NCBI GenBank assembly: GCA_009839485.1
Contig: VXPQ01000046.1
Coordinates: forward strand, 124,001 to 188,000
DNA length: 64,000 nucleotides
Origin: Bacteroidetes bacterium SB0662_bin_6
GTDB lineage: Bacteria; Bacteroidota; Rhodothermia; Rhodothermales; VXPQ01
Direction: 5' to 3'
Shown: positions 41,625 to 64,000 of the stretch, one piece after another
How positions within the stretch are numbered: position 1 is the stretch's first letter
How the letters are laid out: every line of letters starts with the position of its first letter
Notes under the pieces: model-generated
Told to the model about the DNA's origin: nothing
What the model saw: only the letters and a program-made list of their open reading frames with translations
Databases searched by the model: none
Translations under genes and position numbers: made by a program

Positions 41625-43019
41625 ATGCAACTCGATAAATTGGGTATTTCTCGTAAAATGGCACGGCGGCTTGCCATCGGCCTGGGCGGCCTCGGAGCCA
41701 TTTTCTTCTTCACTGTTTACACCGCACAGGCGCAAAGCACTCTCGGCGAAGAAGCCCAGTTTGTTCTGAACAGTTTTTCCTTCCTTGTCTGGGGTGCACT
41801 GGTGATGTGGATGTGCGCGGGCTTCACCATGCTGGAGGCCGGTTCCGTACGAACCAAAAACGCCTCCGTGATTTGCCTGAAGAATGTGGGCCTCTATTCA
41901 ATCGCCGGGCTGACTTTCTATCTGATTGGTTACAATATCATGTATGTGGGCGTCGAACCGGGCGATTGGTTTGGCTCCTTGAAGTTGTTTTACGGCACCT
42001 CCGAACATGAAATGGCTCTTCTTGACGGACAGGGCGACGCAGCCTCCGAAGTCATTGGAAATGGCAGTTCGGTCATGTCGAACTGGTTCTTTCAGATGGT
42101 GTTTGTGGGGACGACGGCTTCCATCGTATCCGGCGCACTGGCCGAGCGGGTAAAATTGTGGTCCTTCTTCATCTTCATCGCCGTGCTGACGACAGTCATC
42201 TACCCGATCATCGGGGCCTGGACATGGGGCGGCGGCTGGCTTGCGGAAATGGGCTTCCAGGATTTTGCCGGATCGACCATCGTGCACTCGACCGGCGGCT
42301 GGGCGGCGCTTGCCGGCGTACTCATCGTCGGCGCCCGAAGAGGTAAGTTCCGAAAGAATGGGGACGTCAAAATGACCCCTCCGTCCAATGTGCCTGCTGT
42401 GACGCTGGGTGTGTTCATCTTGTGGCTCGGCTGGTTCGGTTTCAACGGGGGATCGCAACTGGCCCTGAGCGGTGCGGTCGATGCCGTAGCAATCAGCAAT
42501 ATTCTTGCTAACACCAACCTTGCGGGAGCCGCAGGCTTCATAGCCGCCATTTTTCTGTCGCGCCCCCTTTTCGGGCGGGTCGACCTGCTTGCCAGCCTGA
42601 ACGGAGCCATCGCGGGTCTGGTGGCGATCACGGCCGGTCCCGATATCGTCGCGCATCAATGGGCAGTGGTCATCGGCGCAATAGGCGGCGCCTTGTGCGT
42701 TATCGGGCTGAAGGTTATGGAACGCCTCAAGATCGACGATGTAGTTGGCGCGGTGCCTGCACACCTGTTTTCGGGCATATGGGGAACGCTTGCGGTCTGC
42801 ATTGTAGCCGGCGGCAATTTAGGCGTGCAACTTGTCGGTATTCTCGCCGTCGCCGTTTTCGCGTTCGGAGCTTCCTGGCTCACATGGATAGCCATCGATA
42901 AAACGATCGGGGTCCGTATCTCCTTGTCTGTCGAGGGGCTTGGTCAGGATGTGGCGGAACTGGGTATCGAGGCGTATCCGGAATTTGTCGTCATCCCCGA
43001 TATGGACGACGACGAGTGA
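41625..43019 (+). CDS. amtB: Ammonium transporter
   Basis: 464 residues, Amt/Rh family, eleven membrane helices after an N-terminal signal peptide-like segment (LGGLGAIFFFTVYTAQAQ). The two pore histidines are in GSTIVHSTGGWAALAG and VGAVPAHLFSGIWGTLA; AGFTMLEAGSVRTKN and FGFNGGSQ are family blocks. It moves ammonium into the cell. The usual glnK partner is not adjacent. The C-terminal tail ends in an acidic run (DMDDDE) rather than a typical GlnK-binding tail. A strong terminator follows. Confidence 0.97.
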   Translation: MQLDKLGISRKMARRLAIGLGGLGAIFFFTVYTAQAQSTLGEEAQFVLNSFSFLVWGALVMWMCAGFTMLEAGSVRTKNASVICLKNVGLYSIAGLTFYLIGYNIMYVGVEPGDWFGSLKLFYGTSEHEMALLDGQGDAASEVIGNGSSVMSNWFFQMVFVGTTASIVSGALAERVKLWSFFIFIAVLTTVIYPIIGAWTWGGGWLAEMGFQDFAGSTIVHSTGGWAALAGVLIVGARRGKFRKNGDVKMTPPSNVPAVTLGVFILWLGWFGFNGGSQLALSGAVDAVAISNILANTNLAGAAGFIAAIFLSRPLFGRVDLLASLNGAIAGLVAITAGPDIVAHQWAVVIGAIGGALCVIGLKVMERLKIDDVVGAVPAHLFSGIWGTLAVCIVAGGNLGVQLVGILAVAVFAFGASWLTWIAIDKTIGVRISLSVEGLGQDVAELGIEAYPEFVVIPDMDDDE

Positions 43020-43071: not shown

Positions 43072-44502
43072 CTACGCCAGCAATTCCAGCACCGGCTCTC
43101 CCAATCCCTCAGGCGTCGTGTAGATGGGGCGCCCCTCCACTTCGTAGTGCGTCTCCGGCGGGATACCCAGCGCATGGTAGATCGTCTGGTGTATCTGGTC
43201 GATGTAGACCGGCTCGCCGACGGTTACGCAAGGACGTTCATCGGCGGTTTGGCCGTAGACAAATCCCCGCTTGACACCGCCTCCGAAGAAAAGTATTGAA
43301 CAGCCGTCGGTGAAATGACGGTGCATGCCATAGTGCTTCATCGTTTCCACCGTATCCGGCACCTCCACCTGATCCCTCACCTTGGCCTCCGGGCGACCCT
43401 CCTGCATCATGTCCCGGCTGAATTCGCTGGCCAGTACGATGAGCGTCCGGTCGAGATGACCGCTTTCGTCCAGGTCCCGGACAAGTTGCGCCACAGGCCG
43501 GTCGATCATCTGTTTCATGTTGACCAGCCGGGTATGGCCGTTTTCGTGCGTATCCCAGCCCAGAAACGGTTCGTATTCGGTCGTTACGCTGACAAACCGG
43601 GCCCCATGCTGCACCAGCCGCTTCGCCAGTAAACAGCCGAGCCCGAACCGCCCGGTGTCATAGGCCGCATACTGCTCCGGGGGTTCGTTATGGAGATTGA
43701 ATGCCTGGGCTTCCGGTGAGCGCAGGAGACGATATGCCTGTTCCATCGAGCGCAACAGGGATTCTTTCTGGTAGTCGCTTCCCCGCTCGCCCAGCGGGCT
43801 ACTCTCGACAAGATCGCGGTACAGGGCGTGGCGCCGCTCGAACCGCCCGTTCGTCATGCCGGCAGGGGGACGAACGCTCTCCAGCCCACTGGCCGGATCA
43901 GGGATCAGAAAGGGACCATACTCGCTGCCGAGAAATCCTGCTGTGTGAAAAGCTTTCAATTCTTCGGCTTCCCCGACGGTGAATCGCTGCCCGATGTCGA
44001 TAAACGGCGGGATAGCCGGATTTATGGGCCCCAGTTCTTTGGCGATCCATGCCCCGAAATGAGGAAGCTGCACGGACTGCGGCGGCTCATAGCAGGTATG
44101 CCAGTGATACTGGTGCCGGGAATGCAGAATGAAGCCGAGGTCCGCCGCCCGGTAGGAGCGTAAAAGGCTTCCGCGATCCATCACCTCCCCGATAGCCTGT
44201 AATCCCTCGGAGAAAGAGACCCCGTCGACAACTGTCGGCAGGGCCGGGAAGGTACTCAGAATACGCTTGCTCTCCATGCCCGGCTCGAACGGCTCGAACC
44301 GCTTCGGATCGAACGTCTCGGTATGGGCCATGCCTCCGGCCATCCAGAGCAGGATAACGCTATCCGCAGTCGCCGTATTTCGCTGTTCCGCTCTCCCCTC
44401 GGAACGACACCCGCTCAGAAACGAGGCTGCTGGTACGGAAGCGGCCATGGCGGCAAGGCTCGCCGCCTGCATCTGCTTGAGAAAATCCCTGCGCGTAGTC
44501 AT
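43072..44502 (-). CDS. DUF1501-family protein with Tat signal
   Basis: 476 residues. The N-terminus MTTRRDFLKQMQAASLAAMA is a Tat signal (TRRDFLK) ending in a lipobox-like FLSGC, so it may be a Tat-exported lipoprotein. The body has the alkaline-phosphatase-like DUF1501 pattern: VILLWMAGGMAHTETFDPK, SRHQYHWHT, FLGWDTHENGHTRL and VLASEFSRD. The family is frequent in Planctomycetes and other marine bacteria and nearly always next to a PSD1/DUF1549-DUF1553 gene, as here, 6 nt downstream of it. The role is thought to be at the cell surface but is not known. Confidence 0.92.
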   Translation of the reverse strand: MTTRRDFLKQMQAASLAAMAASVPAASFLSGCRSEGRAEQRNTATADSVILLWMAGGMAHTETFDPKRFEPFEPGMESKRILSTFPALPTVVDGVSFSEGLQAIGEVMDRGSLLRSYRAADLGFILHSRHQYHWHTCYEPPQSVQLPHFGAWIAKELGPINPAIPPFIDIGQRFTVGEAEELKAFHTAGFLGSEYGPFLIPDPASGLESVRPPAGMTNGRFERRHALYRDLVESSPLGERGSDYQKESLLRSMEQAYRLLRSPEAQAFNLHNEPPEQYAAYDTGRFGLGCLLAKRLVQHGARFVSVTTEYEPFLGWDTHENGHTRLVNMKQMIDRPVAQLVRDLDESGHLDRTLIVLASEFSRDMMQEGRPEAKVRDQVEVPDTVETMKHYGMHRHFTDGCSILFFGGGVKRGFVYGQTADERPCVTVGEPVYIDQIHQTIYHALGIPPETHYEVEGRPIYTTPEGLGEPVLELLA

Positions 44503-44508
44503 CGAAAA

Positions 44509-47394
44509 TCAGTAAATCAACTGGAAATCCGGTAACATGAACACGGCCCATAACACATCCTGTACCTCTTCTTCAGTGGGATGTTCGCCCAGCAATGCTG
44601 TGGCTGTGCGCATTTCGCGGCGGCTGGGGGCACGCCCGAGCGCGCTGTGATACAAGCGCTCCACAAGCATTCGCGGATCATCCCCGTAATCGCCCAGCCA
44701 TCTTGCTGCCCCGGCAGAGACAGCCTCGTTGAAAAAAGCGCCGTTGCTAAGCTCAAGCGCCTGCAACAATGTCGCCTGATCGTCACGACGGGTGACGACA
44801 TTCTCACGGGTAGGCCGTCCCAGCACTTTAAGAAAGGGATCGAGCGTTACCAGCGAGGCGCGGGCAAAGGGCAGGTGCTCCCGATCCGGATTGTGCCGGA
44901 AATCCACCGGCCGGCCCCAGTAACTCCGGTCAAACCGACCGTATGCGCGGGCAGGCTGCCAGTCCCTGTCGTCATAGTTTACACTTGTCCAACCAACACC
45001 GGGTAACTCATCGGTGGTTTTCCATTCGGCATTCGAAAAAATCGCCTGCCGGGTACTATCGGCAAAGGTCAGGCGAAGGTCGAGCAGTACACCTGCCGGA
45101 TTAGGCAGGCTGCCTCCGTTTTCTCCTTCGACAGCGAGTAGATTGATCCCATCCCGGAAGACCCCGGTGAGATCGATCCGGTGCACGGTACGCCAGTCCC
45201 TCCCTTCCGCCACGCGTTCTCCATTCAGATACAACACAAACGCTTCATCTACAGAGACAAGCGCCTGTGCATCCAGCACGTTGCGATGTTCCTGCTCCAG
45301 GTGGAATGGATACCGAAAATACCGTTTGCCCGGCTTGGGCAACACGTCCCGATCCACTTCCTGTTCATGGTGCCATATCCACTGCGCCTCGATATCCTCA
45401 CCCAATGGATCGTAGGCTACCGCGCTGTAGAATGGTCCGATTGTCTGGCTGAGCGCATCGGTCAATTGCTCGGCGGAGAGCCGCCGGCGCACCGGCCCGC
45501 GGAAACGGTAGGCATGCGTCAGCAGGTCCTGTGCTTCGGCGGACGGGGTGGATGGCAACTGGTACGTCCGGGAAGTCATGATCTGTGCAATGAGATATTG
45601 CAGGTCCGTCCCGTGATCAACCAGATCAGCGGCAAGCCAGTCGAGCAGTTCCTGACTCCATGGCGCCCGATCCATTTCATCCACCGGCATGATGATTCCC
45701 CGTCCGAGCAGCCGATCCCAGAGTCGATTGGCAATGGTTCGGTACAGGCGGCCGTTGGCCGGTTGCACCACGATATCGGCCAGTTGAACAAGGCGTTCTT
45801 CAACCGTCTCTGCTTCTACAATGCCCAGTTCGGGATATAGAAACGCCGGGCTCGACATCCGCCCGGTAGGCTGGTCGCAGCGGAACACCTCCAGGACCGT
45901 ATCGGCAAATACCGTGGCGAAGCCGTAGGCCTCGTCCAGTGTAAGGTTGCTTACAAAGCTGTCATGACACGAGGCGCATTTGAGATTGACCCCAAGAAGC
46001 GATTGCGAGACGTTTTGCGCCGCCTGCATTTCGATGCGCTGGCTGTTGTTGGCCACGCCTCTCCACTGTATTCCCCGGATGAACCCTTCGGAGTCTTCCG
46101 TAGGACTGAGCAGGGCACGCACCATCTCATCATAGGATTGGTTGGTCAGGAGCGCATTGTAGAGCCAGTCGGTAATTTGCTTGCGCCCCCCCGTGATGTA
46201 TCCCGTGCCGGAATAATCATTGCGCAACAGGTCGTTCCAGAAACTGAGCCAGTGCTGGGCATAGGGATGCCGTTGGCCAAGCAGGCTATTCACCAGTTTC
46301 TCGCGTTTGTTACTGTCTTTGTCGTGGATAAACGCATCCGCCTGTTCGGATGTCGGCAAGAGGCCTATAGCGTCCAGATACGCCCGCCGGACGAACGTGC
46401 GGTCATCCACGGGTTTGGCCCAGCGGACCCCTTCCTGTTCGAAATAGGCGTTCACGAACCGGTCGACAGGATGGTCAAGGTCTTTCCCAAGGGGTAGAGC
46501 CGGTTTTTCGAGCGCCAACTCCGCTTCCGGAAAGATGCGCACGTCGCCTTCGGCCCAGGGCGCCCCCAAGTCGATCCAGAGCCCAATGAGGTCAATCTCG
46601 TCGCGGCTCAATGCCTCGGCTTTCTGAGGCATGGCGTCTTCGTCATCCCGGGGAAGCGACAGGCGGCGCATGATCTCGCTTCCCGCAGCGTTTCCCGCGA
46701 CAAAGATCGGCCCCGACTCGCCGCCGGCCCGGACGCCGGCTTCGTTATCGAGAACCAGTCCCCCCTCCTGTTTTTCCGGGCCGTGGCACTTGTAGCACCG
46801 ATGTGCAAACAGCGCTCGAACTTCAAGGTTGATTCGGTCCAGTTGTTGGGAACTGTACGCTCCCGTGTCGACGGTGCGAAATTCGGCGAGCAATTCACCG
46901 GCCATGCTTTCCGGACGGTTCCAGGGGAAGGCGCCGCGCAGATAATCTGCACCGTGGGTTAAGCGCGCCCCGAGATGCCCCGTAACGCCTATACCAATCA
47001 GACATACCGAAAGAGCAATGCGGTAATGCGTCCAGGCGGTACGCCGGGCAGGCTGTTCCGAGCGATCAGTGCGCTCCGCCCGGCGCAGCAACCAGGCAAC
47101 CGCCAAGGCCAGTACGGCGGTTCCGATACCAAACCATTGATGCCAGACGGCCGTGTTTCCACCGTAAGCGCCGGTGTTCAGGAGAAACCATCCCAGAAGG
47201 CTTGCCAACACGGCACTTCCCGTACCGATCCCGATCATCCACCGAATCCCCTCACGCAAGCCGGGGCGTTTGCCGCCGAGCGTCATCCATTCCATGAAAA
47301 ACGCAGCGACGAGCAGGCCGATGGGGAAATGCACCATCAACGGATGCAGCCGTCCCAGGAATTGAACAACCCAGGATTCCGTCAGGGCTTCCAT
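44509..47394 (-). CDS. PSD1-type multidomain cytochrome c protein (DUF1549/DUF1553) with membrane N-terminus
   Basis: 961 residues. The first 170 hold four to five membrane helices (LMVHFPIGLLVAAFFMEWMT, DUF2231-like). A planctomycete-type cytochrome c domain with haem motif CYKCH follows (about 200-275), then DUF1549 (PVDRFVNAYFEQEGVRWAKP) with a second CASCH site around 490, a carbohydrate-binding-like region (about 690-800) and DUF1553 at the C-terminus (RPTRENVVTRRDDQATLLQA). It should be anchored in the membrane with the haem outside, and works with the DUF1501 protein encoded just downstream. Electron transfer linked to polymer breakdown has been proposed for such pairs. Confidence 0.9.
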   Translation of the reverse strand: MEALTESWVVQFLGRLHPLMVHFPIGLLVAAFFMEWMTLGGKRPGLREGIRWMIGIGTGSAVLASLLGWFLLNTGAYGGNTAVWHQWFGIGTAVLALAVAWLLRRAERTDRSEQPARRTAWTHYRIALSVCLIGIGVTGHLGARLTHGADYLRGAFPWNRPESMAGELLAEFRTVDTGAYSSQQLDRINLEVRALFAHRCYKCHGPEKQEGGLVLDNEAGVRAGGESGPIFVAGNAAGSEIMRRLSLPRDDEDAMPQKAEALSRDEIDLIGLWIDLGAPWAEGDVRIFPEAELALEKPALPLGKDLDHPVDRFVNAYFEQEGVRWAKPVDDRTFVRRAYLDAIGLLPTSEQADAFIHDKDSNKREKLVNSLLGQRHPYAQHWLSFWNDLLRNDYSGTGYITGGRKQITDWLYNALLTNQSYDEMVRALLSPTEDSEGFIRGIQWRGVANNSQRIEMQAAQNVSQSLLGVNLKCASCHDSFVSNLTLDEAYGFATVFADTVLEVFRCDQPTGRMSSPAFLYPELGIVEAETVEERLVQLADIVVQPANGRLYRTIANRLWDRLLGRGIIMPVDEMDRAPWSQELLDWLAADLVDHGTDLQYLIAQIMTSRTYQLPSTPSAEAQDLLTHAYRFRGPVRRRLSAEQLTDALSQTIGPFYSAVAYDPLGEDIEAQWIWHHEQEVDRDVLPKPGKRYFRYPFHLEQEHRNVLDAQALVSVDEAFVLYLNGERVAEGRDWRTVHRIDLTGVFRDGINLLAVEGENGGSLPNPAGVLLDLRLTFADSTRQAIFSNAEWKTTDELPGVGWTSVNYDDRDWQPARAYGRFDRSYWGRPVDFRHNPDREHLPFARASLVTLDPFLKVLGRPTRENVVTRRDDQATLLQALELSNGAFFNEAVSAGAARWLGDYGDDPRMLVERLYHSALGRAPSRREMRTATALLGEHPTEEEVQDVLWAVFMLPDFQLIY

Positions 47395-47444: not shown

Positions 47445-49187
47445 TCACGGGGTTTTTACATGGACCGTCACGATATCGGTATCATGATATATCTGATGGC
47501 GAACCGAAGAGGCAACATGCCGCAGCAACCGCAGCGAAATTTCCCTCTCGACCGGCGCCCCGGCGGTTTGCTCGCCAAGCAGCGCCATCTGATCCTGAAG
47601 ATTTTCCTCCCCGGACGATGCGACAAACTCCAGAATCGCCTCGTCGCTCTCCTTGCGCGCAGCCAGAAGAAGCCGCCGCTGCCCGTCTTTTTCCTTCCCC
47701 TCGTCCCGGTCGAAAAGCGTAAGCAACGTTTCCTCGGCAGCGGCTTCAAGGCGCTCTCCCATCGCCCTGTCCCAGCCGCTGCGGGACGTGAACGTCACAA
47801 GAAACTTCCGTATTTCCGGTAAAGCGGATATGTCGAATGCCGCCTCCATCCGGCTGGGCCGGCGTTCCGTCAACTCCATGAACAGGGTCATGAGGATGGC
47901 CACAAGCCCCCCTGCCGTCATGCCGTTCTGAAAAATGCCGCCTGCAAACTCCGCGAAGTATTCCGGAAATATCACGCCGTTCTGAAAGCCGACACCGGCC
48001 CAGAATGCGACGCCGACCACAAGCGACTTGCGATAATCGATCCCGTCCTGAACGACAATTCTCATGCCGACCACGAATAGCATCGCCAGAAGGACGGCGA
48101 TATACGCCGCGGCGACCGGGCTCGGGATCGCCAGGACCCCGGCAATTGCCTTGGGAAGAAAAGCCAGCACAATAAATAGTATCCCGACAGCGACGCCGAC
48201 CCTGCGCGCGCCCACCCCTGTAAGTTCAGTGACCGCCACGCTCGTGGAATAGGTCGTGTTCGGAACAGTCCCTGCAAGCCCGGACAACAAATTGCCAAAC
48301 CCGTCCGCAGCCACCGCACCCTGCACTGCACGAAAATCCACCGCCCGAGGGGTACGCCAGGAAACACGCTGAATGGCGACGGCATCCCCAACCGTTTCGA
48401 TGGCGCCGATCAGGGTCACGAACACGAATGCCGGAAGGAGGGTCCAGAAAACCGGACCGAACGAAAGATCCATGCCCGGCCAGCCGCTCTGCGGAAAACC
48501 GATCCATGAAGCTTCTGCGATGCGGGCAGTATCATAAAGCCCGTAGAATCCGCCGACTACAGAACCCGCGATAACCCCGATGACAGGCGCCCAGAGTCGC
48601 AAGGTGCCCTTCGCTTTCAGGGCAATGCCGCTAATGCACAGTATGGTTGCAAGCGCGGTCATCGGGGCCGCCATTTCGGGAGATCCCTCCGGTACCTCAT
48701 GCAACATGTCGAAAATGATCGGCATGACCGTTACCGCTATGAGCATGACTACGGTCCCTGTAACGGTCGGGGTGAGAATTCTACGGAAGAGCGAGAGGCG
48801 CGCCGCAAGTGCGAACTGGAAAAGCGAGGAGATAATGACCAGGGTGGCGAGCATGGCCGGACCGCCCTCGACAAGGGCCGTGATACACACGGCGATAAAA
48901 GCCCCGGAGGTTCCCATCAGCAGCACATAGCCTGCGCCGATCCGGCCGAACCGGACCGCTTGCATTATCGTCGTTATGCCGCTGATCATGACCGCAGCAA
49001 AGACCGCCCAGGATAAAAAGGTCTCGGTTCCTCCAGCGGCCCGGATAACGATCATCGGAGTAAACACGATGCCGGCTATGCAAAGCACGGCGAGTTGAAA
49101 GCCCAGGCCGAAGGAAAGCGTGGTCGGAGGCGATTCGTCGGCCTGATAGCGAACGCCTGTGCGGGGGTTTGTCGTGTCCGTAGTCAT
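47445..49187 (-). CDS. NCS2-type (uracil/xanthine) permease fused to a degenerate HATPase-like domain, copy 1
   Basis: 580 residues from ATG 49187. Residues about 28-440 form a 13-14 helix transporter of the nucleobase-cation-symport-2 kind (MGTSGAFIAVCITALVEGG, VPNTTYSTSVAVTELTGVGARRVG, GMRIVVQDGIDYRK). The last 130 residues are soluble and resemble a serine-kinase/anti-sigma type HATPase: ALPEIRKFLVTFTSRSGW, RLEAAAEETLLTL where the N-box Asn would be, and SLRLLRHVASSVRHQ. The ATP-site asparagine and glycine-rich box are not evident, so it is probably a sensory or binding domain. A paralogue lies at 62340. The substrate could be a nucleobase or something unrelated exported with the polyketide; this is not shown by the sequence. 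Confidence 0.8.
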   Translation of the reverse strand: MTTDTTNPRTGVRYQADESPPTTLSFGLGFQLAVLCIAGIVFTPMIVIRAAGGTETFLSWAVFAAVMISGITTIMQAVRFGRIGAGYVLLMGTSGAFIAVCITALVEGGPAMLATLVIISSLFQFALAARLSLFRRILTPTVTGTVVMLIAVTVMPIIFDMLHEVPEGSPEMAAPMTALATILCISGIALKAKGTLRLWAPVIGVIAGSVVGGFYGLYDTARIAEASWIGFPQSGWPGMDLSFGPVFWTLLPAFVFVTLIGAIETVGDAVAIQRVSWRTPRAVDFRAVQGAVAADGFGNLLSGLAGTVPNTTYSTSVAVTELTGVGARRVGVAVGILFIVLAFLPKAIAGVLAIPSPVAAAYIAVLLAMLFVVGMRIVVQDGIDYRKSLVVGVAFWAGVGFQNGVIFPEYFAEFAGGIFQNGMTAGGLVAILMTLFMELTERRPSRMEAAFDISALPEIRKFLVTFTSRSGWDRAMGERLEAAAEETLLTLFDRDEGKEKDGQRRLLLAARKESDEAILEFVASSGEENLQDQMALLGEQTAGAPVEREISLRLLRHVASSVRHQIYHDTDIVTVHVKTP

Positions 49188-49485: not shown

Positions 49486-49716
49486 ATGACAGCAACAGAA
49501 AATCGACTCCAGGAACTTGCCAATGAGAACCTGAACATATCGGGTTCAGCCGATCTCGACGTCGGCCTCAGCGACTCCGATGTATCTTCAATGGACGCGG
49601 TTGCATTCATTAAACTGGTTGGCAAGAAGTTCAACGTGGAGATTCCTCCTGAAGACTTCGCGCAAATTACCAGCTTGCGGGCCCTTGGTGCATATCTCGA
49701 TGCCCAGTCGGGGTGA
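49486..49716 (+). CDS. Discrete acyl carrier protein
   Basis: 76 residues, the size of a free ACP. The expected phosphopantetheine site falls in DSDVSSMDAVAFIKLVG: a serine precedes Met in place of the usual DSL, as in some polyketide ACPs. The four-helix pattern and acidic character fit (VEIPPEDFAQITSLRALGAYL). An AGGAG 12 nt upstream of ATG is a weak ribosome site. It should be activated by the PPTase encoded directly downstream. The PKS encoded opposite ends after KS-AT without an ACP, so this protein is the natural carrier for its second module or for chain release. It is not the housekeeping fatty acid ACP, whose DSL core differs. Confidence 0.85.
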   Translation: MTATENRLQELANENLNISGSADLDVGLSDSDVSSMDAVAFIKLVGKKFNVEIPPEDFAQITSLRALGAYLDAQSG

Positions 49717-49778
49717 GCACGCGGCATGCAGGGATACAAGAATCGTCGGGCTGTGAGACGCTCGATCCCTACGGAATC

Positions 49779-50513
49779 ATGGCATCTCCCTCTATTGACG
49801 AATGCTGGTGGCATTCCTTCAATAGAATAGACGATGTAGTTGTCCTGCATGTTGATCTGACACCCAATGCGGCGCGTGAAGCATGCGCTCTGGCGTGGCT
49901 TGACGAGGCGGAAAAGGCGCGTTTGCGCCGTTATCGATATGCCCGTCCCCGACGGGAATCCGCCTTATGCCGTGCGGCGCTGCGTGCTGTGCTTTGCGAT
50001 CGGCTTGGCTGCAGAAACGATCAGCTCGCATTCGATACTTCCAGACACGGCAAGCCGTTCGCTGTCTTGCGCGGGGCGCCGGCGTCTATCAGTTTCAGTG
50101 TCAGCCATAGCGGCAGGCACGGATTGATTGCGCTTGCGCCGTCAGGGCGCCTTGGCGTGGACGTGGAAGAACGCGTTGCCCGTCACGATCCTGACGGAGA
50201 GATCAGAATGATCTTTGCTCCGAGGGAGCGAGCTGAACTTGCTTCGGCAACCGGAGATCGGAAATTCCACCTGTTCTTTGCACTCTGGACCATGAAGGAG
50301 GCATTGATCAAGGCGCTCGGAACAGGTTTTGCCCTGGATATGTCACGATTCGAAATTCCGCCGCAGATGTATCTTGGTGCGAGCACGAGCATATTCAGGT
50401 TTCCTCATCTGCCGACAATCAGATGGCGGCTCGACAATCTGGGCAACGACCGTTTTGCGGCTGCGGTAGCTCATGAATTAGTCCCGAACCCTCCTGCCAG
50501 TCCTGTTCGTTAG
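49779..50513 (+). CDS. 4'-Phosphopantetheinyl transferase (Sfp type)
   Basis: 244 residues from ATG 49779; GTG 49713 is in frame and overlaps the ACP stop as GTGA, which would couple translation but adds a head unlike the family. Motifs: ISFSVSHSGRHGLIAL, GVDVEERV with the Mg-binding Asp and Glu, and FFALWTMKEALIKALGTGF with the W-KEA signature. It transfers phosphopantetheine from CoA to carrier proteins, here presumably the discrete ACP and the PKS ACP domain. Sfp-type enzymes accompany secondary metabolism rather than fatty acid synthesis. Confidence 0.93.
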   Translation: MASPSIDECWWHSFNRIDDVVVLHVDLTPNAAREACALAWLDEAEKARLRRYRYARPRRESALCRAALRAVLCDRLGCRNDQLAFDTSRHGKPFAVLRGAPASISFSVSHSGRHGLIALAPSGRLGVDVEERVARHDPDGEIRMIFAPRERAELASATGDRKFHLFFALWTMKEALIKALGTGFALDMSRFEIPPQMYLGASTSIFRFPHLPTIRWRLDNLGNDRFAAAVAHELVPNPPASPVR

Positions 50514-51636: not shown

Positions 51637-51678
51637 CAGGCCCCGCAGAGCGCCGCTGCACAGTGGTAACAGGCCCTA
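51637..51678 (-). repeat. Stop-codon-anchored 42-bp repeat, copy 3
   Basis: Reads in the PKS direction and begins on the TAG stop of the PKS gene. It is identical to copy 1 at 39 of 42 positions (GGCCTGTTACCACT, then GTGCAGCGG, then GCTCTGCGGGGCCTG). Unlike the other two, similarity stops at the end of the unit. If the element supplied the TAG, insertion here would have cut the PKS off after its second AT. Confidence 0.8.
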
Positions 51679-54600
51679 TTTCGACGTATCGATCCAGTAT
51701 CGCCGGCGCTGGAACGGATAGCCCGGCAGAGAAATCCGGCGCCGTGTTTCCCCCGCGAACAATCCGGCGAATGCAACCGGGAGCCCCGCTTCGTACGCTG
51801 CTGCAATCGCCGCCACGAACCCGTCCCCGCCATGTATCGGCGACCCGTCTCCGGATGGTTTCTGCAGATTCGACAGCACAAGCGGCGATTCCGCAGCATT
51901 CCTGTTCGTGCCCTTGCCTGCCGTTTTCTTCGGCCGGACTTTATCTGTCTTTGGTCCCAATATTGAATGCGAACCAATCTGCACAATCACCTCCACCCCC
52001 AGATCGGCCAGCGTCTCCACACACTTGTCGAATACTTCCGGTTCTTGCGCCTGCCGGCGCCAGTATGCCGCATCGAGTGTTTCACCTGACGCCACGGCCC
52101 GACCTGTCACACTACTCACGACCGTGAGAGAGGGGGAAGCAATGATTGCACCTGTTAGCGCAGCTTCCAACTCGTCTGCTACAGGCTGCCGTTGTTCTGC
52201 ATCCGCGGAAACTGCCGCTGCCGCACCCCTTGCCGCTGCTAACCGTAATCCATCTTCCAAACCGAACACCCCTGCTGCCTGAGCCGCCGCAATCTCCCCA
52301 AGGTCGTGTCCAACCACCACGCTCGGTTGAATCCCCACGCTCGACCAGAGCGCCGTTAGCCCGCATTCCAGCGCGTAGATAGCAGGATAAGCCCAGGCAG
52401 CATCGTCCATATTTCCCGCGGCCCCCGGTCGGTTAAACATCACGTCCAGCAAGGAAAGCCCCCGCTCCTCCTGAAATGCTTCTTCGCAGCGATCCAAAAC
52501 CGCCCGTACCACCGGTTCGCTATCGTATAACTCTTTGCCCGAATCGCTCCATTGGGCGTCTTTTCCGGCAAAAGCAAAGGCTATTTTCGTCGTTGCCTGC
52601 GGCTCCTGATCCGCACGTATTTCTGCATCCGCTTCTGCAAGTGCACGAAGCCTTTCCCTAAGCGAGTCGGCATCCCGGAACACGATACCGGCACGATGTG
52701 CGAAATGGCTGCGCCCCACACCTGCTGTCCAGGCCATATCCGAGAGCGTCGGATATGCAGCGGCGCCATTCGAAGAAAACGCTCCGACATGCTCGTCGAG
52801 CCAGACCAGATAGCGCCCCGCCAGCTCCCGGAGCGCCTCATCCGACTTCCCTGATAACGGCAATAATCGCACAGTTCTCTCAACGAGGTCTTGCTCCGCC
52901 AGGGGCTGCCGGGCAACCGACTCTTGCAGGGAATCAGGCAAACAGGCCGCAACAGATCGCTCGGAACCCGTGGGCCCATGCCCTGCATCGGGTGTGGATA
53001 GAACACCCTCGGAAGATTCATATCCTTCCACGACAATGTGCGCATTCGTACCCGAAAGTCCGAAGGAACTTATCCCTGCCCTTGGCGGCCGGTCAGAATG
53101 GGCCGGCCACGTTGTCGCCTCGGAGGTGACCTGTACCGGCAGTTGCCCCCAGTCAAGATGCGGGCTTGGATTGTCAAAGTGTAAATGTTTGGGAATGACC
53201 CCTTTGTTCATTGCAAGAACGGCCTTGATCAGGCTTGCAACCCCCGCCGCGCACTCAAGGTGGCCGATATTCGTCTTTACCGAACCAATCAGCAGCGGGC
53301 GCTCCGCTGCCCGCTCCCTGCCGTAAACTGCCGCCGCCGCCTGCACTTCGATCGGGTCGCCCAAACCCGACCCCGCGCCGTGCGCCTCCAGATAATCGAC
53401 TTCCGCGGGAGAAATTCCTGCTTGCAACAATGCCTCCTCAATCACTCGCTCTTGCGATGGCCCGTTCGGAATGATCAGCCCCGCACTTGCTCCATTCTGA
53501 TTTACCGCGGAGCCCCGGATCACCCCCCATATCCTGTCTCCATCCGCTCTCGCTTCACGCAACCGCTTCAGGACCACCATCCCACAACCCTCCCCCCGTA
53601 CAAAGCCGTCTGCAGCCGCATCGAAGGTGCTGCACTGCCCGCTCGCAGACAACATCCCGAGCTCCATCATAAATCGTGTGATTTCCGGAGACAAAACCGC
53701 GCTCACCCCCCCGGTGAGAGCCATGTCGACTTCTCCCTGGCGCAATGCGGAAAGCGCCTGATGTATCGCCACGAGAGACGATGCGCACGCCATGTCGACC
53801 GGCACGGCCGGACCGGTAAGACCCAAAACAAAAGCAATCCGGCCGGCCGTTACGCTCATGGTGGTGCCGAGGTACCCATGCGTTTCCCCACTGGCAGCTG
53901 CGACATCCCGATAGTCGCCGTTGCCGACCCCGACATACACCCCGGTGCGGCTACCTTTGATACCGTCGGGCTCCATCCCCGCATCTTCGATAGCATGCCA
54001 GGTAGTCTCCAGCAACAGACGCTGTCGCGGGTCCATCATCCGCGCTTCGATGGGCGCAATACGGAAGAACTTTGCGTCAAATTTGTCAATTTCTTCGACG
54101 AATGCTCCGCGACGGGAAATAGCATCCGTAGAAGCAGGATCTCCGGCCACGCCGTCCCAGGAGCCGTTATCCCGGCGTCCGTCCGTTACCGCGTCCACTC
54201 CCGCTTCGAGCTGGCGCCAGAAGGTTGAAATGTCCGGAGCACCGGGGAATCGGCACGCCATACCCACAATCGCTATCCCGTTGTCCTCTCCTTCTGCTTG
54301 CACCTGGGGCTGTGGCTCGGGTCGAACCTGCGGAGGAGGGGCATCCCCGACTTCGCCAAGTTCTCCGACCAGATGAGCGGCGAGTGTAGCGATGTCCGGG
54401 TAATCGAACACGACCGTGTTGGAGGCCACGTATTCTCCGGCAAATGCCCGATTCAGGCGGTTCCGTAATTCCACCGCCATAAGCGAGTCCATCCCCAGGT
54501 CGAAAAACCCTACCGTAGCCGCCGGCGCCGTGGATAGCCTCAGCACTGCCTGCACTTCCTGCTGCAGGAAGGAAACGAGCAGTTCTTCGCGTCCCGCCGG

Positions 54601-57600
54601 GGTTCCCCTCAACCGGGACAGCAGGTCCTCTGACGAGGTGCGGGCATCGGTTTCGGCCTCCGGAGCAACAGACAGCAAGTCCTCCAGCAGTGGAGGGCGG
54701 TCTTCCGCCGCCTCTTCATACACTGCCCAATCCATCGACATTACCACGGAATTCGTGGCGTCCTGACGCACCAGTTGTTCGAATGCCCGGAGGCCCTGCT
54801 GCGGGGTAAACCAGCGGCCTCCGAGTGCTGTACGCCGGCGATCGATCCGCTCGCGTTGTTCCGCGGCTTCACCAATCTCTGACCACGCTCCCCAGGCAAT
54901 AGCCTGTCCGGGGAGTCCCTGTGCGCGGCGGTGACCAGCGAGTTGGTCCAGAAAGGCATTGGCCGCGGCATGGTTTGCCTGGCCCGGATTGCCCATCACG
55001 CCAACCCGACTCGAAAAGAGGACGAAGAGATCCAGATCCCGGTTTTCTGTCGCCCGGTGCAGATGCCAGGCACCCAGTATCTTCGGCCAGAGCACCGTTT
55101 CGAATCGCTCCCAACTCTGGTTGGTCAGTGCGCCGTCCGACAGTACGCCCACACTGTGGATTACACCTCCGAGCGGTGGTAGCGTCGCATCTATCCGTTC
55201 CAGCATCTGATCTATTGCGGCGGCATCCGTCACGTCCGCAAGTTCCACCTGCACCGTCACGCCGCGCTCCCGCAACTTGCGGATCGTCTCCTCTGCTTCG
55301 GCATCCGGCGCCCGGCGTCCGTTTAACACGATCGCTCCTGCTTCGTGGTCTGCGAGCCAGTCGGCCACTGCACATCCGATCCCTCCCAGACCGCCGGTCA
55401 CCAAATAGGTTCGATCCTGCCGCAAACGCCCTGTCATGAGCGGGGGCGGCGTCACGACGATCTTCCCGAGGTGCCGGGCCGATCGCATGAAACTCAATGC
55501 GGCCCCGGCTTCGGTGAGCGGCCACCTGCTGTGGATAATCGGTTTCAGTTCTCCTGCCGAAAGACCCTTCATCACACCCCGCAGGACTTTCCCCACCCAC
55601 GCCGGTTCGGTTTTTTTGAGGACATCCAATGCCAGGATGGAATAGCCTACATCCGGACGCACAGCCGCCATCTCTTCCTCGCTATAGATGTCTCGTCTGG
55701 CCATTTCCACAAACCGGCCGCCCTGCCTGAGACAGGACAGACTCGTTTCGATGAAACCCTCCCCCGTCAGGCTGTTCAGTACTACGTCCACCCCCGCGCC
55801 GTCTGTGGCTTCGAGGATTTCCTGGCCGAACGCTGTCTGGCGGCTGTCGAATATGTGCTCTACGCCCAGTGACCGGAGATATGCCTGCTTCGGTGCGCTT
55901 GCGGTAGCGAAGACCTCTGCTCCAGCAGCTTGCACCAACTGGATGGCCGCCAGGCCGACACCGCCCGCACCCGCATGAATCAGTACCCGTTCGCCAGCCT
56001 CAAGCCCGGAATATTCAAAGGACAGCGCAGCCGACACAAAGGCGCTTGGCACCGTCGCAAGTCCACTCACGGAGAATCCGAATAGCGCAGGCGCCACCAG
56101 TTCCTCCCGTGTGATCATTTGGGGCCCGAACGCACCGAAACCTAATCCGACCACATGGTCACCGACCGAAACGGTCGAGACATCGGAGCCTACCTCGAGG
56201 ATGCGGCCACACATCTCTCTGCCCAACAGTCCTTCTTCGATGAAGCCGAGTGATCGGAATACATCCCAGAAGTTGAGTCCGGCCGCGTCGACAGCCACGC
56301 GAACTTCCTTCGGCTCGAGAGGACGTGCCGGCAGCGGCTGGACATACGGTCTGTCGAACACCCCGGCAGGATCCGGAGCGAGCACCCATTCCATCTCCTC
56401 CGGGAAAGCCAGCCGTTCCGGCCCGTCGCCCGCTCGAACGAGGCGCGCCACCTGACGGCGCCCCGATCGATACGCGATGTGATTTTCGGAATCAGGATAT
56501 AAGAGTTCTTCGGTGAGATCGGGCTCCGGCGCCATCTCGCCGGGGTCCAGATCAATCATCCTGGGCTGCAGATGCACCGCTTCACGAGCTATAGCCTTGC
56601 CGAAGCCCCAGAGCGCTGCGCCCGCGAGTTCTCCACCCCGTTCCCGCTCCAGCACCTGGGCGCCCCGTGTGATCATCCAGACGCCATTGGAGGGGACCAC
56701 ATCGGAATCTGCGACGCCCTGAACCAGGGCCAGTGCGCTCGCTCCCGCTCGCCTCACGTCTTCGGCTATTTCCTCGGTTGTAGTCTGTTCCCCATGACCG
56801 TCCAGTCCCACAAGATGCACCACACCGCTGAGCGGTACATCGTCAGGCAAACCGGTCACAAGCGCTCCCCAGGACTCGCGCTGATCCATTTCCACGGCCG
56901 TCCTGAAAACCCCGGAACCAGCCGCTGCCGACCTCTCGTCTTCGGCGGCTTCGCTGCCCGCCAGCACGACGGTCTGGTTCCGCGCAGCCAAATCGACTGC
57001 CAGCTTCTCTGCAACCCCTCCCTCGTCCGCTACGAGAATCCACATGCCTCCCGGCTCTGTCACCTCAATCGGACCTTGCGCTACAATCACACCTTTATCC
57101 GGTGTTTTCGACGAGTCGGATTCATCTACTCCCAGAAATTCCACTTCCCCGAAACCCGCGTCACCGAGGGCCTGGCGCCACACGGCGGGGCTTGCCAGTG
57201 CGTGATGCGGGCGGTAGTCGTCGGCAAACCGCCACCAGCCATCCAACTGACCGAACGTCAGGTCCATCCAGCCCAGGCCACTAAGGTTCTCGAGAGCGAT
57301 CAACTGTCCGGATGGGGCAAGCAGGTCCCGGCAGTGTCCCAGCGTTTCCTCCAGATATCGCGTTGCATGCAGCACGTTGGACGCGATCATCAGATCGTAT
57401 CCATGGGAGTCGAAACCCTGTTCGATCGGGTCCTTCTCGATGTCCAGCGGACGGTACTCAATACACCCGCCCCCATCTCCAAAGCGCGCCTCCGCCTCGG
57501 AAAAGAAGCCTGCGGAGATATCCGTATAGACGTAGTCGAACTGTCCTTCGGGAAGTTCCGGAAGTACGGATGCGGTTGCAGATCCGGTGCCCGCCCCGAC

Positions 57601-60600
57601 CTCGATCACCCTGAGGCGCCGTCCTTCCGGCAATGCAGCCACCAGCGCCCGAACCGCCTCTCCCAGCATCCGGTTCGCCGCACGCGCCACGGGCGCCTTC
57701 AGATAGAGATCGGCCGCCGTGGGTTCTCCGCTGCTGAACAGTAGTGTCAGGGGATCTTCCCGGCCGCGAAGCACCTCGGCCAGCGCACGCCCGGAGCGCC
57801 GAAACAGCCCGATCTCGGTCTGACCATGGGAATAGAGACCCATCATACGGGTGGCAAACTCCTCAAGGTCAACAGGCATGTGCTCAGGCAATGCATCCTC
57901 CGGTCCCACGATCACGACAAACCCGTCGTCCGTCTCTTCCACCACGCCCGATTTGGCAAGCATCTCGAAGAGCCGCCGGAAGAGACGCTTGTGCTCGGGA
58001 AGGACGTTCAACTGGCTTCGCAACGCCTCCGTGTCCACGGTTTCGCCCGCCTGGCGCCGCCAACCCAGCTCTTCCAGCGTCGCGAGCGCACGGGACCGGG
58101 ACCATCGCTCGAGGTCTGTAAGCAGACGGTCCCGGTCTTCGGGATCTACGCCTGCGTCCGTCAGATACCCGGCGAACAATTGCGAGCCGGCCTCGACAAC
58201 CGCCGGGCTCGGGAAGAAGTCTGCGGGGACCATTCCGGGTGGAAGGGCGTGCTCGCGCCACACCACCTCATACAGCAGATCCTGCACTCTTTCGATCGCC
58301 GAGAGCAGGGAAGCCCGTGTCGCCCTTTTGACCGTGTATCCGCTCAGGCGACCGAGCAGCGCCCCATTCAGATCGTAGATGCGCATCTCGCCGCTCAGAA
58401 CCTCGGCAGGCTCGCCCGAATCGGTCTTCCCGTTGGTTGATGCATCGCTCAGGCGTACATGGCAGACGACCCGATCAGGCAACGGCCCCGCCAGCCACAG
58501 CCGTTCCCAGCCGAACGGCAGATAGGTGGCCCCAGCCTCGGTCCCTGCCAGATTGCGCGCTGCGCCCACCACCTGGAAGCAGCCGTCCAGCACGAGCGGA
58601 TGCATATCCAGTCCGTGCCTGGTCAGTGTTTCAGGAAGAGACACCTCACCCAGGGCCTCGCCCGGACGAGACCAAACCCTCCCAAGCGTGCGGAAAAACG
58701 GACCCAGGTCAACCCCCGTACTCGCTCTCTGGCGATAGTAGCCCGCCACATCTGCCGGCGAGAGATTGGCCTTCAGACTTTCAAAATCGATCCGCTCACC
58801 CGCTTCCGGATCCGGGGCGCCCGGCAACAGGCGACCTTCCACATGAAGCATCCATTCCCCTTCACTTCCCTTACTGAATATCTGAAAATCGTGCGACGAC
58901 GCCTGCTCGGAAGCGTTGAGCACAACCTGCATTTTCCGGCCCTCTTCCCCCTCTTCTTCCTCCTTCTCGAAGACAAGCGGGTTATATAACTGCATGTTCT
59001 CTACGACGATCGATCCGCTCCCCTCAAGAAGTGACGCCGCACAGGCCATAGTGCCGTAGAGCGCACCGGGGGCGACGACCCGGCCGAATACCCGGTGGTC
59101 GTTCATCCACACCGGATCGGAAGCAAACACTTCCGTCTCGAATGTGATTTCGCCGCGGGCGGACTCGTGCCGCATGCCCAACAAGGGATGCCCCGAACCC
59201 CGGCGCTGGCGCTTCGGCGCCTCGATCCAATGGCGTTGGCGCTGGAAAGGATAACCCGGCAGCGATATCCGTCGCCGCGTCTCTCCCGCGAACAGCCCCG
59301 GAAAATGAATCGGGAGTCCCGCCCGATAGGCCTCCGCGACGGCCGTTGTATATGCGCGGTCGGCTTCCGATTGCGATACTTTGGAAGAGGGCCGCAGCAA
59401 GCTCGACAAAACTACGGGCGGATCGCCTGCCGTATCGGGCCAGGCCAGGGTCGCCATCGTAGCCAGTACCGAGTGCGGGCCCATCTCCACCACCATATCG
59501 ACCCCGAGGTCCGACAGCGTCTCAATACTTGGAGCAAACGCTACCGGCTCCCGGGCATGCCGCTTCCAGTACGCTCCGTCCAGCGCTTCGCCGGAATTCA
59601 CCGCTCGACCGGTCAGATTACTGACCAGGGTCAGAGAGGGGGGCTTGATTGTGACTTCATCAAGAGACGCTTCCAGCGCATCCAGAGCCGGTTCCACCAG
59701 GGCGCTGTGGAATGCCTTGGCCGTGTTCAGCCGCCTTACCTGAATTCCCTCTGATTCGAAGTGCTTTGAGAAGGCCTCGATCTTTTCGACCGGGCCGCTG
59801 ATCACTTGGTGGGTTCCGTTGTTCGCCGAGATGCTTACCTCAATCCCGGCGGATGCCGCATTCAGGGCCTCGATTGCCGGCGCCACTCTTTCGGGCGGTG
59901 CGAAAACCGCGGCCATGGCGCCCTCTTCGATTCCTGACAGCAGGGTTCCTCGTGTGGCCGCAAACCGCATACCATCCTCCAGGCTGAATACCCCTGCCGC
60001 CTGCGCCGCAGCGATTTCCCCGACACTGTGCCCCATCACTACGTCGGGCCTGATCCCCACACTCGCCCAGAGTGCCGTCAGCGCGCACTCCAGCGCGTAG
60101 AGGGCCGGCTGCTCCCATGCCGTGTCGTCCAGTTGCCCTTGCTCTTCGGCCCGGCCGAACATTACATCCAGCAGGGAGGCCCCTCTTGCATCCCGGAATA
60201 CCGCCTCGCAACGATCCAGAACCGCTCTCGCCACCGGTTCCGTCTCGTAGAGTGTCTGCCCCATGCCGACCCACTGGCTTCCTTGCCCGGTATATACAAA
60301 CGCTATCCGGGAGGGGGTTTGCGCCGCAGTGGGCATGCCTGCCTCTGCAAGGGTACTCAGACCCTCGCGCAGCGACGCGGGGTCGCTGAATACGACGCCT
60401 GCCCGGTGGGTAAAATGACTGCGTCCCACGCCCGCCGTCCACACCATGTCCGCAAGGGCCGCCTCGCTGTCGGAAGCAAATTCGTCGGCATGTTCGTCGA
60501 GCCATGCAAGGTACCGCCCCGCCAGGTCTCGAAGCGCCCCATCGGATTTACCCGAAAGCGGCAGAAAACGGGTTTCGCGCAGGCCGCACTCTTTCTCCGG

Positions 60601-62339: not shown

Positions 62340-64000
62340 TTACGTGCTCACACGCACGGTCACGATATCTGTCTCGTGATATTGCTGGTGGCGAACCGAG
62401 GACGCGAGATGTCGCAACAGCCGAAGTGACACTTCCCGCTCCATGGGCGCTTCTTCCGTGTGTTCGCTGAGTAGCGCGATCCGATCCTGAAGATTCTCCT
62501 CCCCTGAAGAGACAACGAATTCAAGCACGGCGTCCTCTTCTTCCCTGTACGCCGTAAGACGCAGGTGCCGTGTGCTGTGCACCCCTTCCGCACCCTCTGG
62601 TGGAATGAGTGTCAGCAAGGTCTCCTCCGCGGCGGCGTCCAGGCGGCCTGCCATTGCCGTGTCCCAGCCGTTGCGGGACGCGAACGCACCGAGAAAGTCC
62701 CTGATCTCTGACAGCGCGGAAATATCGAATACCATCTGTATCCGACTATGGCGGGGCCTCGTGAGCTCCAGGAACAGCGTCAGGAGGATGGCTGTGATAC
62801 CGCCGGCGTTCATCCCGTTCCGCAAAAGACCGCCTGCAAACTCCGAGATGTACTCGGGAAATATCATGCCGCTCTGGAAGCCGACCCCGACGAGGAACGA
62901 GATGCCGACAACTATGCCTTTGCGATAATCGATTCCGTCCTGAACGACTATTTTAATCCCGACCAGGAAGAGCGCCGCCAGCATTACGATGAAATAAGCG
63001 GCGATGACCGGGCCCGGTATCGCCAGGACGATGGCGAGCACTTTCGGAAGAAACGCCATGATAATGAACACGGCCCCGGTGGCAACCCCGACGTTGCGGG
63101 CGCCGACCCCGGTGAGTTCCGCCATCGATACGCCCAGAGTGTTGGCCGTATTCGGTATCGTACCCGTGAGACCGGAAATCAGGTTGCTTATGCCATCCAC
63201 GGTCATGGCGCCTTCCACCGCCCGGAAATCCACCGCCCGGCTTTTGCGCCACGAGATACGCTGGATGGCGACGGAACTGCTGATCGTGCGGATGGAACTG
63301 ACTACGGCGACAAGCAGGAATGCGGGAAGAAGCGCCCAGAAAGCGGGCCCAAAGTCGAGGGCGAAACCCGGCCATTCGTTCGCCGGCAGGCCAATCCATG
63401 AAGCCGCAGTAATTCGATCAAACTCGTATAGCCCGAAAAAGCCGCCAATTACCGAGCCGGCGACCACACCGATAACCGGCCCCCATAGACGTAACACCCC
63501 GGTCGCCTTTAGTGTGATGCCGCTGATGATGAGCAGCGTTACAAAGGCGCTGAGCGGAGCAGCCAGCGCCGGGGCCCCGGGCACCGGCAACAGATTGAAG
63601 ATGGCCGGCATTATAGTAATCGGTATCAGCATGATTATCGTTCCCGCGATAGCCGGGGTCAGAAACCGCTGAAACAGCGAAAGCCGCCAGGAAAGCACAA
63701 GGGGAACGAAGGATGAGATGACGACCAGGGTGGCGAGCAGTGCCGGTCCGCCTTCGGCGACTGCCGTGATACAGACCGCGATGAAAGCTCCGGACGGCCC
63801 CATAATGAGCAAATAACCCATGCCGATCCGGCCGATGCGAGCCGCCTGCAAAATGGTGGCTACCCCACCAACCGCGACCGTGGCGAACACGGCCCACGAC
63901 ACATAGGCTTCGGTCGTATCCGCCGCGCGCATCACGACGGTCGGGATCAGTATGATGGCGGCTACACTGAGCGCAGCAAGTTGCAAGCCAAGGCCGAAGG
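62340..64000 (-). CDS. NCS2-type permease fused to a degenerate HATPase-like domain, copy 2 (partial, runs off right edge)
   Basis: 553 residues are visible; the frame is open through base 64000 (FGLGLQLAALSV, matching FGLGFQLAVLC near residue 27 of copy 1), so only about the first 25 residues are missing. The transporter core (MGPSGAFIAVCITAVAEGG, VGIKIVVQDGIDYRKG) and the C-terminal soluble domain (ALSEIRDFLGAFASRNGW, RLDAAAEETLLTL, SLRLLRHLASSVRHQ) correspond to copy 1 throughout. The tail is at least as conserved as the membrane part, which argues that it is functional. It is separated from the PKS by leader copy B. Confidence 0.8.
   Translation of the reverse strand, partial: FGLGLQLAALSVAAIILIPTVVMRAADTTEAYVSWAVFATVAVGGVATILQAARIGRIGMGYLLIMGPSGAFIAVCITAVAEGGPALLATLVVISSFVPLVLSWRLSLFQRFLTPAIAGTIIMLIPITIMPAIFNLLPVPGAPALAAPLSAFVTLLIISGITLKATGVLRLWGPVIGVVAGSVIGGFFGLYEFDRITAASWIGLPANEWPGFALDFGPAFWALLPAFLLVAVVSSIRTISSSVAIQRISWRKSRAVDFRAVEGAMTVDGISNLISGLTGTIPNTANTLGVSMAELTGVGARNVGVATGAVFIIMAFLPKVLAIVLAIPGPVIAAYFIVMLAALFLVGIKIVVQDGIDYRKGIVVGISFLVGVGFQSGMIFPEYISEFAGGLLRNGMNAGGITAILLTLFLELTRPRHSRIQMVFDISALSEIRDFLGAFASRNGWDTAMAGRLDAAAEETLLTLIPPEGAEGVHSTRHLRLTAYREEEDAVLEFVVSSGEENLQDRIALLSEHTEEAPMEREVSLRLLRHLASSVRHQQYHETDIVTVRVST

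Follow-up and report, generated by a model that had tools for sequence, protein, structure and literature searches.

To our knowledge, transceptors (transporters that also signal) are few in bacteria. A related arrangement is found in the SLC26/SulP transporters, which carry a C-terminal STAS domain. In the CbrA/CrbS-type transceptors, an SLC5 carrier is combined with STAC, PAS and histidine kinase parts (PMC7096432, PMC13022988). We found no description in the literature of a bacterial transceptor that feeds a partner switch, nor any report joining NCS2 proteins with HATPase domains or xanthine permeases with SpoIIAB or STAS.

Here we analyse a 64,000-nucleotide stretch of Rhodothermales DNA (the window) that encodes NCS2 permeases fused to a domain of the RsbW/SpoIIAB type. 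The membrane part resembles UapA, UraA and XanQ/PbuX (NAT/NCS2, SLC23) in fold and length, and most copies keep the E-x-x-G-D motif of TM8. It differs from these proteins in that the TM10 signature Q/E-N-x-G has become T/S-S-V-A/S, the TM8 Glu is lost in some copies and a 140-residue GHKL tail is present. The tail shares its fold, topology, alignable sequence and N-box Glu with RsbW, SpoIIAB and UsfX, but has lost the ATP-binding Asn and the G1 and G2 glycines and is joined to a membrane transporter. As in the SLC26/SulP-STAS proteins, a related transporter fold bears a partner-switching-type domain at the same end, although here that domain has the kinase-side (RsbW) fold instead of STAS. The combination of a transporter with a GHKL-bearing signalling part recalls CbrA/CrbS, but the carrier is NCS2 and the partner a dead serine-kinase fold. 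Finally, the tail is comparable to ChpT (HPTransfase, PF10090) as a GHKL domain without ATP binding that may dock proteins, whereas ChpT is soluble and has a His-bearing helix pair.

Copies of the fused permease

Copy A, identified by ORF, Pfam, profile and Foldseek analysis, is a 580-residue NCS2/NAT permease with a C-terminal degenerate RsbW-like domain, encoded at 47445..49187 on the minus strand. Its membrane domain comprises residues 1-440 (47868..49187, minus strand), as judged from the AlphaFold model, Foldseek and profile comparison with the PDB, and its soluble tail occupies the last ~140 residues (441-580; 47448..47867, minus strand). Copy B has the same architecture and lies at 62340..64000 (minus strand) within the window, with its start codon 64 bases past the window end; read from the genome, the complete gene spans 62340-64064 (L007:2340-4064) and encodes 574 residues. 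A genome search identified four copies with the tail, each of them encoded on contig C46. Copy C, outside the window, is in tandem with copy B beside a recA-like gene, and copy D is near the start of the contig. The fifth NCS2 protein of the genome, an AzgA-like protein of 438 residues on contig C39, has no tail.

The first-pass annotation of this DNA had described the fusion in two copies. Both are real, and the tail motifs it quoted match the sequence, but the count for the genome is four, copy B is cut by the window end, and the scale of the fusion, which extends to many phyla, was understated. Its view that the tail is conserved like the membrane part holds for copies A and B (63% identity in both parts), A and C (membrane 63%, tail 65%) and B and C (77% and 86%), but not for A and D (57% versus 42%). 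The checks it proposed, a profile search, a structure prediction and a search for the fusion and its neighbours in other genomes, all favour its reading of the tail as HATPase-like, and the sensing transporter or regulatory output that it suggested would fit this reading.

Other genes occupy the DNA around copy A. A modular polyketide synthase of 3,452 residues (51676-62034, minus strand) is encoded between copies A and B, with KS, AT and DH domains found in its first 1,452 residues, and a 4'-phosphopantetheinyl transferase is encoded at 49713-50513. Downstream of copy A is a planctomycete-type pair of genes for a DUF1501 protein and a PSCyt1-DUF1549-DUF1553 protein (43072-47394, minus strand).

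The tail is a degenerate anti-sigma kinase domain

An AlphaFold (AF2) model of the tail, built from a 28-sequence alignment, has a beta-alpha-alpha-beta-beta-alpha-alpha-beta-beta topology (pLDDT 76, pTM 0.72). In a Foldseek search of this model against the PDB, the first 18 matches were all anti-sigma kinases, namely UsfX (8ih8, E 7e-7), RsbW (6m36, 6m37) and SpoIIAB (1tid, 1th8, 1l0o). Only this fold comparison gave PDB matches, a search with the tail sequence returning none; the lid (residues 528-554) is of low confidence in the full-length model. A comparison with HATPase profiles, suggested earlier as a check, gave a subthreshold result with Pfam HATPase_c_2 alone (8.5e-4 for the copy B tail), and the tails never reach the cut-off of that model (best 23.3 bits versus 27.4). 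It became firm with a dedicated HMM built from 10 free-standing RsbW-like ATPases; apart from true ATPases, the matches of this HMM were all permease tails, over 60 in number (E to 2e-8). The modelled fold, the Foldseek matches and the dedicated HMM together make the homology firm: the tail is a GHKL domain of the RsbW/SpoIIAB type in degenerate form.

Other assignments were considered and rejected. A STAS or other fold is ruled out because the tail has no STAS match in Pfam and the RsbW fold by Foldseek, and a known named NCS2 extension is ruled out because no Pfam or NCBIfam model covers the tail. A Pfam match of the copy A tail to Imm52 (0.0038) was unseen in the other copies and was judged to be chance. 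The copy A protein had no Pfam match to HisKA, an active HATPase or an SLC5 carrier. Across 394 genomes of the phylum, a profile of the tail gave strong matches on these permeases only; the weak matches were to short free-standing ORFs, and those read out have intact N boxes.

The ATP site of the domain has been lost. The former N box, EETLLT (47718..47735, minus strand), keeps E485 and E486 but has Thr in place of Asn at residue 490. The former G1 box, ASSGEENLQD (47592..47621, minus strand), lacks the Asp-x-Gly and lid residues and has N529 and D532 conserved instead, and the former G2 box (GLG) now reads SLRLLRH (47517..47537, minus strand) and includes R553. Aligned with intact relatives, EE-x-x-x-N corresponds to EETLLT, DxGxxF to xSGEEN and GLG to SLR. 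None of 113 aligned homologues has the N-box Asn (Thr in 89, Ile in 11, Ser in 7, and Val, Leu, Met or Cys in the others), and the G1 and G2 glycines are gone relative to the intact relatives, as had been proposed from the window alone. Judged by its kinase-defining residues, which fail, the tail is not an RsbW.

The domain has nevertheless been maintained. Relative to three near orthologues, dN/dS is 0.03, 0.05 and 0.11 for the tail and 0.07, 0.09 and 0.10 for the membrane part, and these low values, like those of the membrane domain, indicate that the tail is neither a chance extension nor decaying. The duplicates B and C are under looser selection (dN/dS 0.28 for the tail and 0.41 for the membrane part). 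Because the ATP site is gone and the domain is under purifying selection, the tail appears to be kept for a role other than phosphorylation.

Three residues, E486, R553 and H564, are invariant in all 113 aligned homologues. An invariant His could point to a ChpT-like histidine phosphotransfer or scaffold element involving H564, and the best match of the tail of an Azospirillum relative is indeed HPTransfase (2.9e-4, subthreshold). In ChpT, however, the phosphorylated His is in a separate helical hairpin. The window tail has neither such a hairpin nor a Pfam match to HPTransfase, and we consider a ChpT-like role very improbable.

That Azospirillum protein (about 24% identical to the window protein) is one of several plasmid-encoded tailed NCS2 proteins of 569-596 residues, found in Azospirillum thermophilum, Pseudoroseomonas cervicalis and Thiodictyon syntrophicum. 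Their tails match HPTransfase, HATPase_c_2 (4e-4) or nothing in Pfam and, by eye, also lack the N-box Asn. On this basis, the joining of NCS2 to a degenerate GHKL-like tail probably predates the family in the window and has a broader distribution. The NCS2 proteins with such other degenerate GHKL-like tails in cultured, free-living Proteobacteria (L177:7974-9692, L178:5716-9725, L179:7956-9710) carry no annotation beyond "solute carrier family 23 protein".

Partner-switching genes adjoin the permease in several lineages

The earlier reading had predicted anti-anti-sigma factors and PP2C phosphatases as neighbours, and STAS and PP2C/SpoIIE genes are indeed present beside some loci. A whole partner-switching module adjoins the permease in Nitrospirota and in a Nitrospinota-like genome, with the permease followed by the module at five Nitrospirota loci (L157, L158, L162, L163, L169) and at L113. 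The module encodes an RsbW-like ATPase with an intact N box (HATPase_c_2 1.8e-19), a STAS protein (6e-16) and a receiver-SpoIIE phosphatase (6e-50), together with a Peripla_BP_6 binding protein and a HAMP histidine kinase. Two loci at contig ends contain only the response-regulator part (L117) or only the ATPase (L175). In Rhodospirillales (L126, L132), the permease is followed by genes for STAS, GPP34, an ammonium transporter, STAS and glutamine synthetase III, with STAS occurring there without the remaining partner-switching genes. In Thiodictyon, two tailed NCS2 genes are less than 7 kb from genes for STAS, a substrate-binding protein and an annotated SpoIIE phosphatase.

The window genome has the five-gene module unlinked, on contig C23 (L198), and the REC-SpoIIE protein encoded there is 61% identical to that of L113. 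Matches to the REC-SpoIIE profile alone are so frequent within the order that they are useful as a marker only when they score highly. The module histidine kinase is present in six of six genomes of the window's genus (>1000 bits), and its orthologue is found in none of the 16 genomes of a second Rhodothermales family (f15), all of which have the permease. Strict co-occurrence of permease and module is thus ruled out. The linkage is real in several lineages but not obligatory, as the unlinked module of the window genome and the f15 genomes demonstrate. The window genome also has a second partner-switching cluster of another type, with a SpoIIE protein, STAS and an ATPase (L199; G000:C32:60000-72000).

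Our best explanation, to which we give about an even chance of being right, is that the protein acts as a transporter-receptor and that a partner-switching protein docks on its pseudo-kinase tail. The tail would be a cytoplasmic pseudo-kinase derived from an RsbW/SpoIIAB anti-sigma kinase, and should not phosphorylate because its ATP-binding residues are lost. It would instead offer a docking surface, probably for a STAS anti-anti-sigma factor and less likely for a real RsbW in a mixed dimer. When substrate binding or transport moves the core domain of the carrier, docking would alter, and nutrient status would thereby be passed to a switch of STAS, RsbW kinase and REC-SpoIIE phosphatase under a histidine kinase. 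Against this explanation, the neighbouring DNA examined contains no partner-switching gene at about 70 of the 80 loci, and the independent lineages with linkage are few.

The same sparseness, together with the absence of the module kinase from f15, would suit a tail that is purely structural, serves dimerization or docks something unrelated, the module linkage being incidental. RsbW-type domains are dimers. The NAT protein UapA is functional as a homodimer (PMC4837479). However, the module is linked in differing gene orders in Nitrospirota and L113, a STAS gene is linked in Rhodospirillales, Thiodictyon has a comparable linked set, and the invariance of R553, H564 and E486 would seem to exceed what mere support of a dimer needs. 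We consider a structural tail improbable.

An ammonium transporter gene (Amt; 41625..43019, plus strand) is also present in the window. Amt genes neighbour the fused permease, at distances of a few kb at most, in three unrelated groups, with loci in Rhodothermales, Rhodospirillales and Gammaproteobacteria (the window, L126, L132, L098, L102, L103, L058, L059 and L096). The association is suggestive only, and a link to nitrogen is possible.

The membrane domain has altered NAT motifs

Residues 28-400 of copy A match Pfam Xan_ur_permease (PF00860; 1.4e-44, 152.8 bits versus a cut-off of 27). The best Foldseek match of the full-length model is UapA (E 5.4e-15, target TM 0.77), followed by UraA and SVCT1, with the SLC26 fold also among the matches; a profile search of the PDB found UapA at 1.4e-25. 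The best NCBIfam match, pbuX xanthine permease (2e-57), is far under the cut-off of that model. Cation-coupled nucleobase transport is a trait of the NAT/NCS2 family.

Alignment to UapA with HMMER and residue counts locate two informative sites. Copy A keeps the TM8 motif E264-T-V-G-D268 (48384..48398, minus strand), in which Glu is equivalent to UapA E356; at this position copy D has Asp and copies B and C have Arg, the copy B motif reading R-T-I-S-S. The TM10 NAT signature region of copy A, PNTTYSTSVAVTELTG (48216..48263, minus strand), has T315-S316 in place of UapA Q408-N409. The Gln/Glu/Pro-Asn of the signature is absent from all copies in the window genome, which have Thr, Ser, Leu or Met followed by Ser or Gly. 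In UapA, transport of uric acid and xanthine is lost or falls sharply when Q408 or nearby signature residues are changed (PMC5972032). With the signature altered in this way, it would be unsafe to take a standard purine as the substrate. Other Rhodothermales genomes encode a divergent tailed NCS2 protein (28% identity; L052:8052-9833, L053) from which both the TM8 and TM10 motifs are gone.

Among the 113 homologues, the TM8 Glu is kept in 87 and the TM8 Asp in 91, so many of these proteins are likely to be working transporters. The acidic residue is lost in 22 (to Gln, Arg, Lys or Ala), often with the Gly-Asp altered too in a TIS[SA] motif. This set includes copies B and C and exactly the six module-adjacent Nitrospirota copies; the other Nitrospirota clade keeps E..GD. 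Across 80 loci, TM8 loss is found at six of the eight module-linked loci versus three of the 72 others (Fisher 7e-6, mostly one clade), and because the correlation depends mainly on that Nitrospirota clade, the independent evidence in it is small. From these residues, we take the copies with a TM8 Glu to be probable transporter-receptors and those with Gln or Arg (copies B and C and the module-linked Nitrospirota proteins) to be probable receptors that have ceased to transport. L113 and L117, which are module-linked yet keep the Glu, call for caution in reading the TM8 difference as a split between transporters and transport-dead receptors.

Retention of the TM8 Glu and Asp in copy A and most homologues also suits the opposite direction of signalling, in which the partner switch frees a STAS protein (or RsbW), whose binding to the tail would open or close the transporter. 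Such control would have parallels in the gating of ammonium channels by PII proteins and in the probable modulation of SLC26 carriers by STAS domains. The equal constraint on tail and membrane domain, and the presence of the partner fold, STAS, at the same end of the related SLC26 fold, are likewise consistent with a tail that serves as input. However, the replacement of the TM8 Glu in the module-linked Nitrospirota copies suits a receptor better than a gated carrier, and we think control of the transporter by the switch credible but unlikely.

The fusion is spread across many phyla

A genome scan recovered 575 relatives of the fused permease. The best 80 of these are all tailed and are 62-95% identical over their full length, so that the search for the fusion in other genomes, suggested earlier as a check, found it at hundreds of genomic places. 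By their MAG labels, these 80 represent about a dozen phyla: Rhodothermota, Pseudomonadota (alpha and gamma), Nitrospirota, Nitrospinota, Acidobacteriota, Actinomycetota, Latescibacterota, Binatota, Gemmatimonadota, Spirochaetota, Dadabacteria and others. Within individual groups the gene is patchy. It is present in 22 of 108 genomes of the window's order, all within two families, and in 14 of 236 Nitrospirales genomes, most of which may belong to one clade.

Phyla are mixed in the tree, with Dadabacteria grouping with Alphaproteobacteria (support 99), Gemmatimonadota with Latescibacterota (98) and Rhodothermales placed at several points. Because paralogues are frequent (each of eight genomes checked has 2-5 copies), these groupings are candidates for transfer rather than proof of it. 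No relative was found on viral contigs, which argues against carriage by phage, and no close relative was found on plasmids; a match on an S. meliloti plasmid was rejected as a tail-less permease of 464 residues whose alignment overran. Some copies are frameshifted or stopped (G004:C1:1408435-1409821, L062; G038:C169; G038:C161), so the family is also losing members.

Many of the genomes may come from sponges. Nineteen bin names start with RHO, COS or APA, which fits the sponges Rhopaloeides odorabile, Coscinoderma matthewsi and Aplysina aerophoba of a symbiont study that itself reports lateral transfer among sponge symbionts (PMC8163846), and one more is named Spongia_Bin9. For the remaining MAGs, the naming style suggests a sponge origin.

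Implications

Taken as a whole, these observations could describe a family of NCS2 nutrient transceptors in which a pseudo-anti-sigma kinase titrates STAS, duplicates have split into transporters and transport-dead receptors, and the gene has moved across about a dozen phyla of a sponge niche. We regard this full account as possible rather than probable. If correct, it would provide a clean case of a dead kinase fold under strong selection and invariably joined to a carrier, and it would be the mirror image of the SLC26-STAS fusion. Many uncultured lineages conserve the protein, and cultured Azospirillum, Roseomonas-like and Thiodictyon strains encode similar NCS2 proteins with tails. The fusion would then be a trait common to unrelated bacteria that seem to share a host niche.
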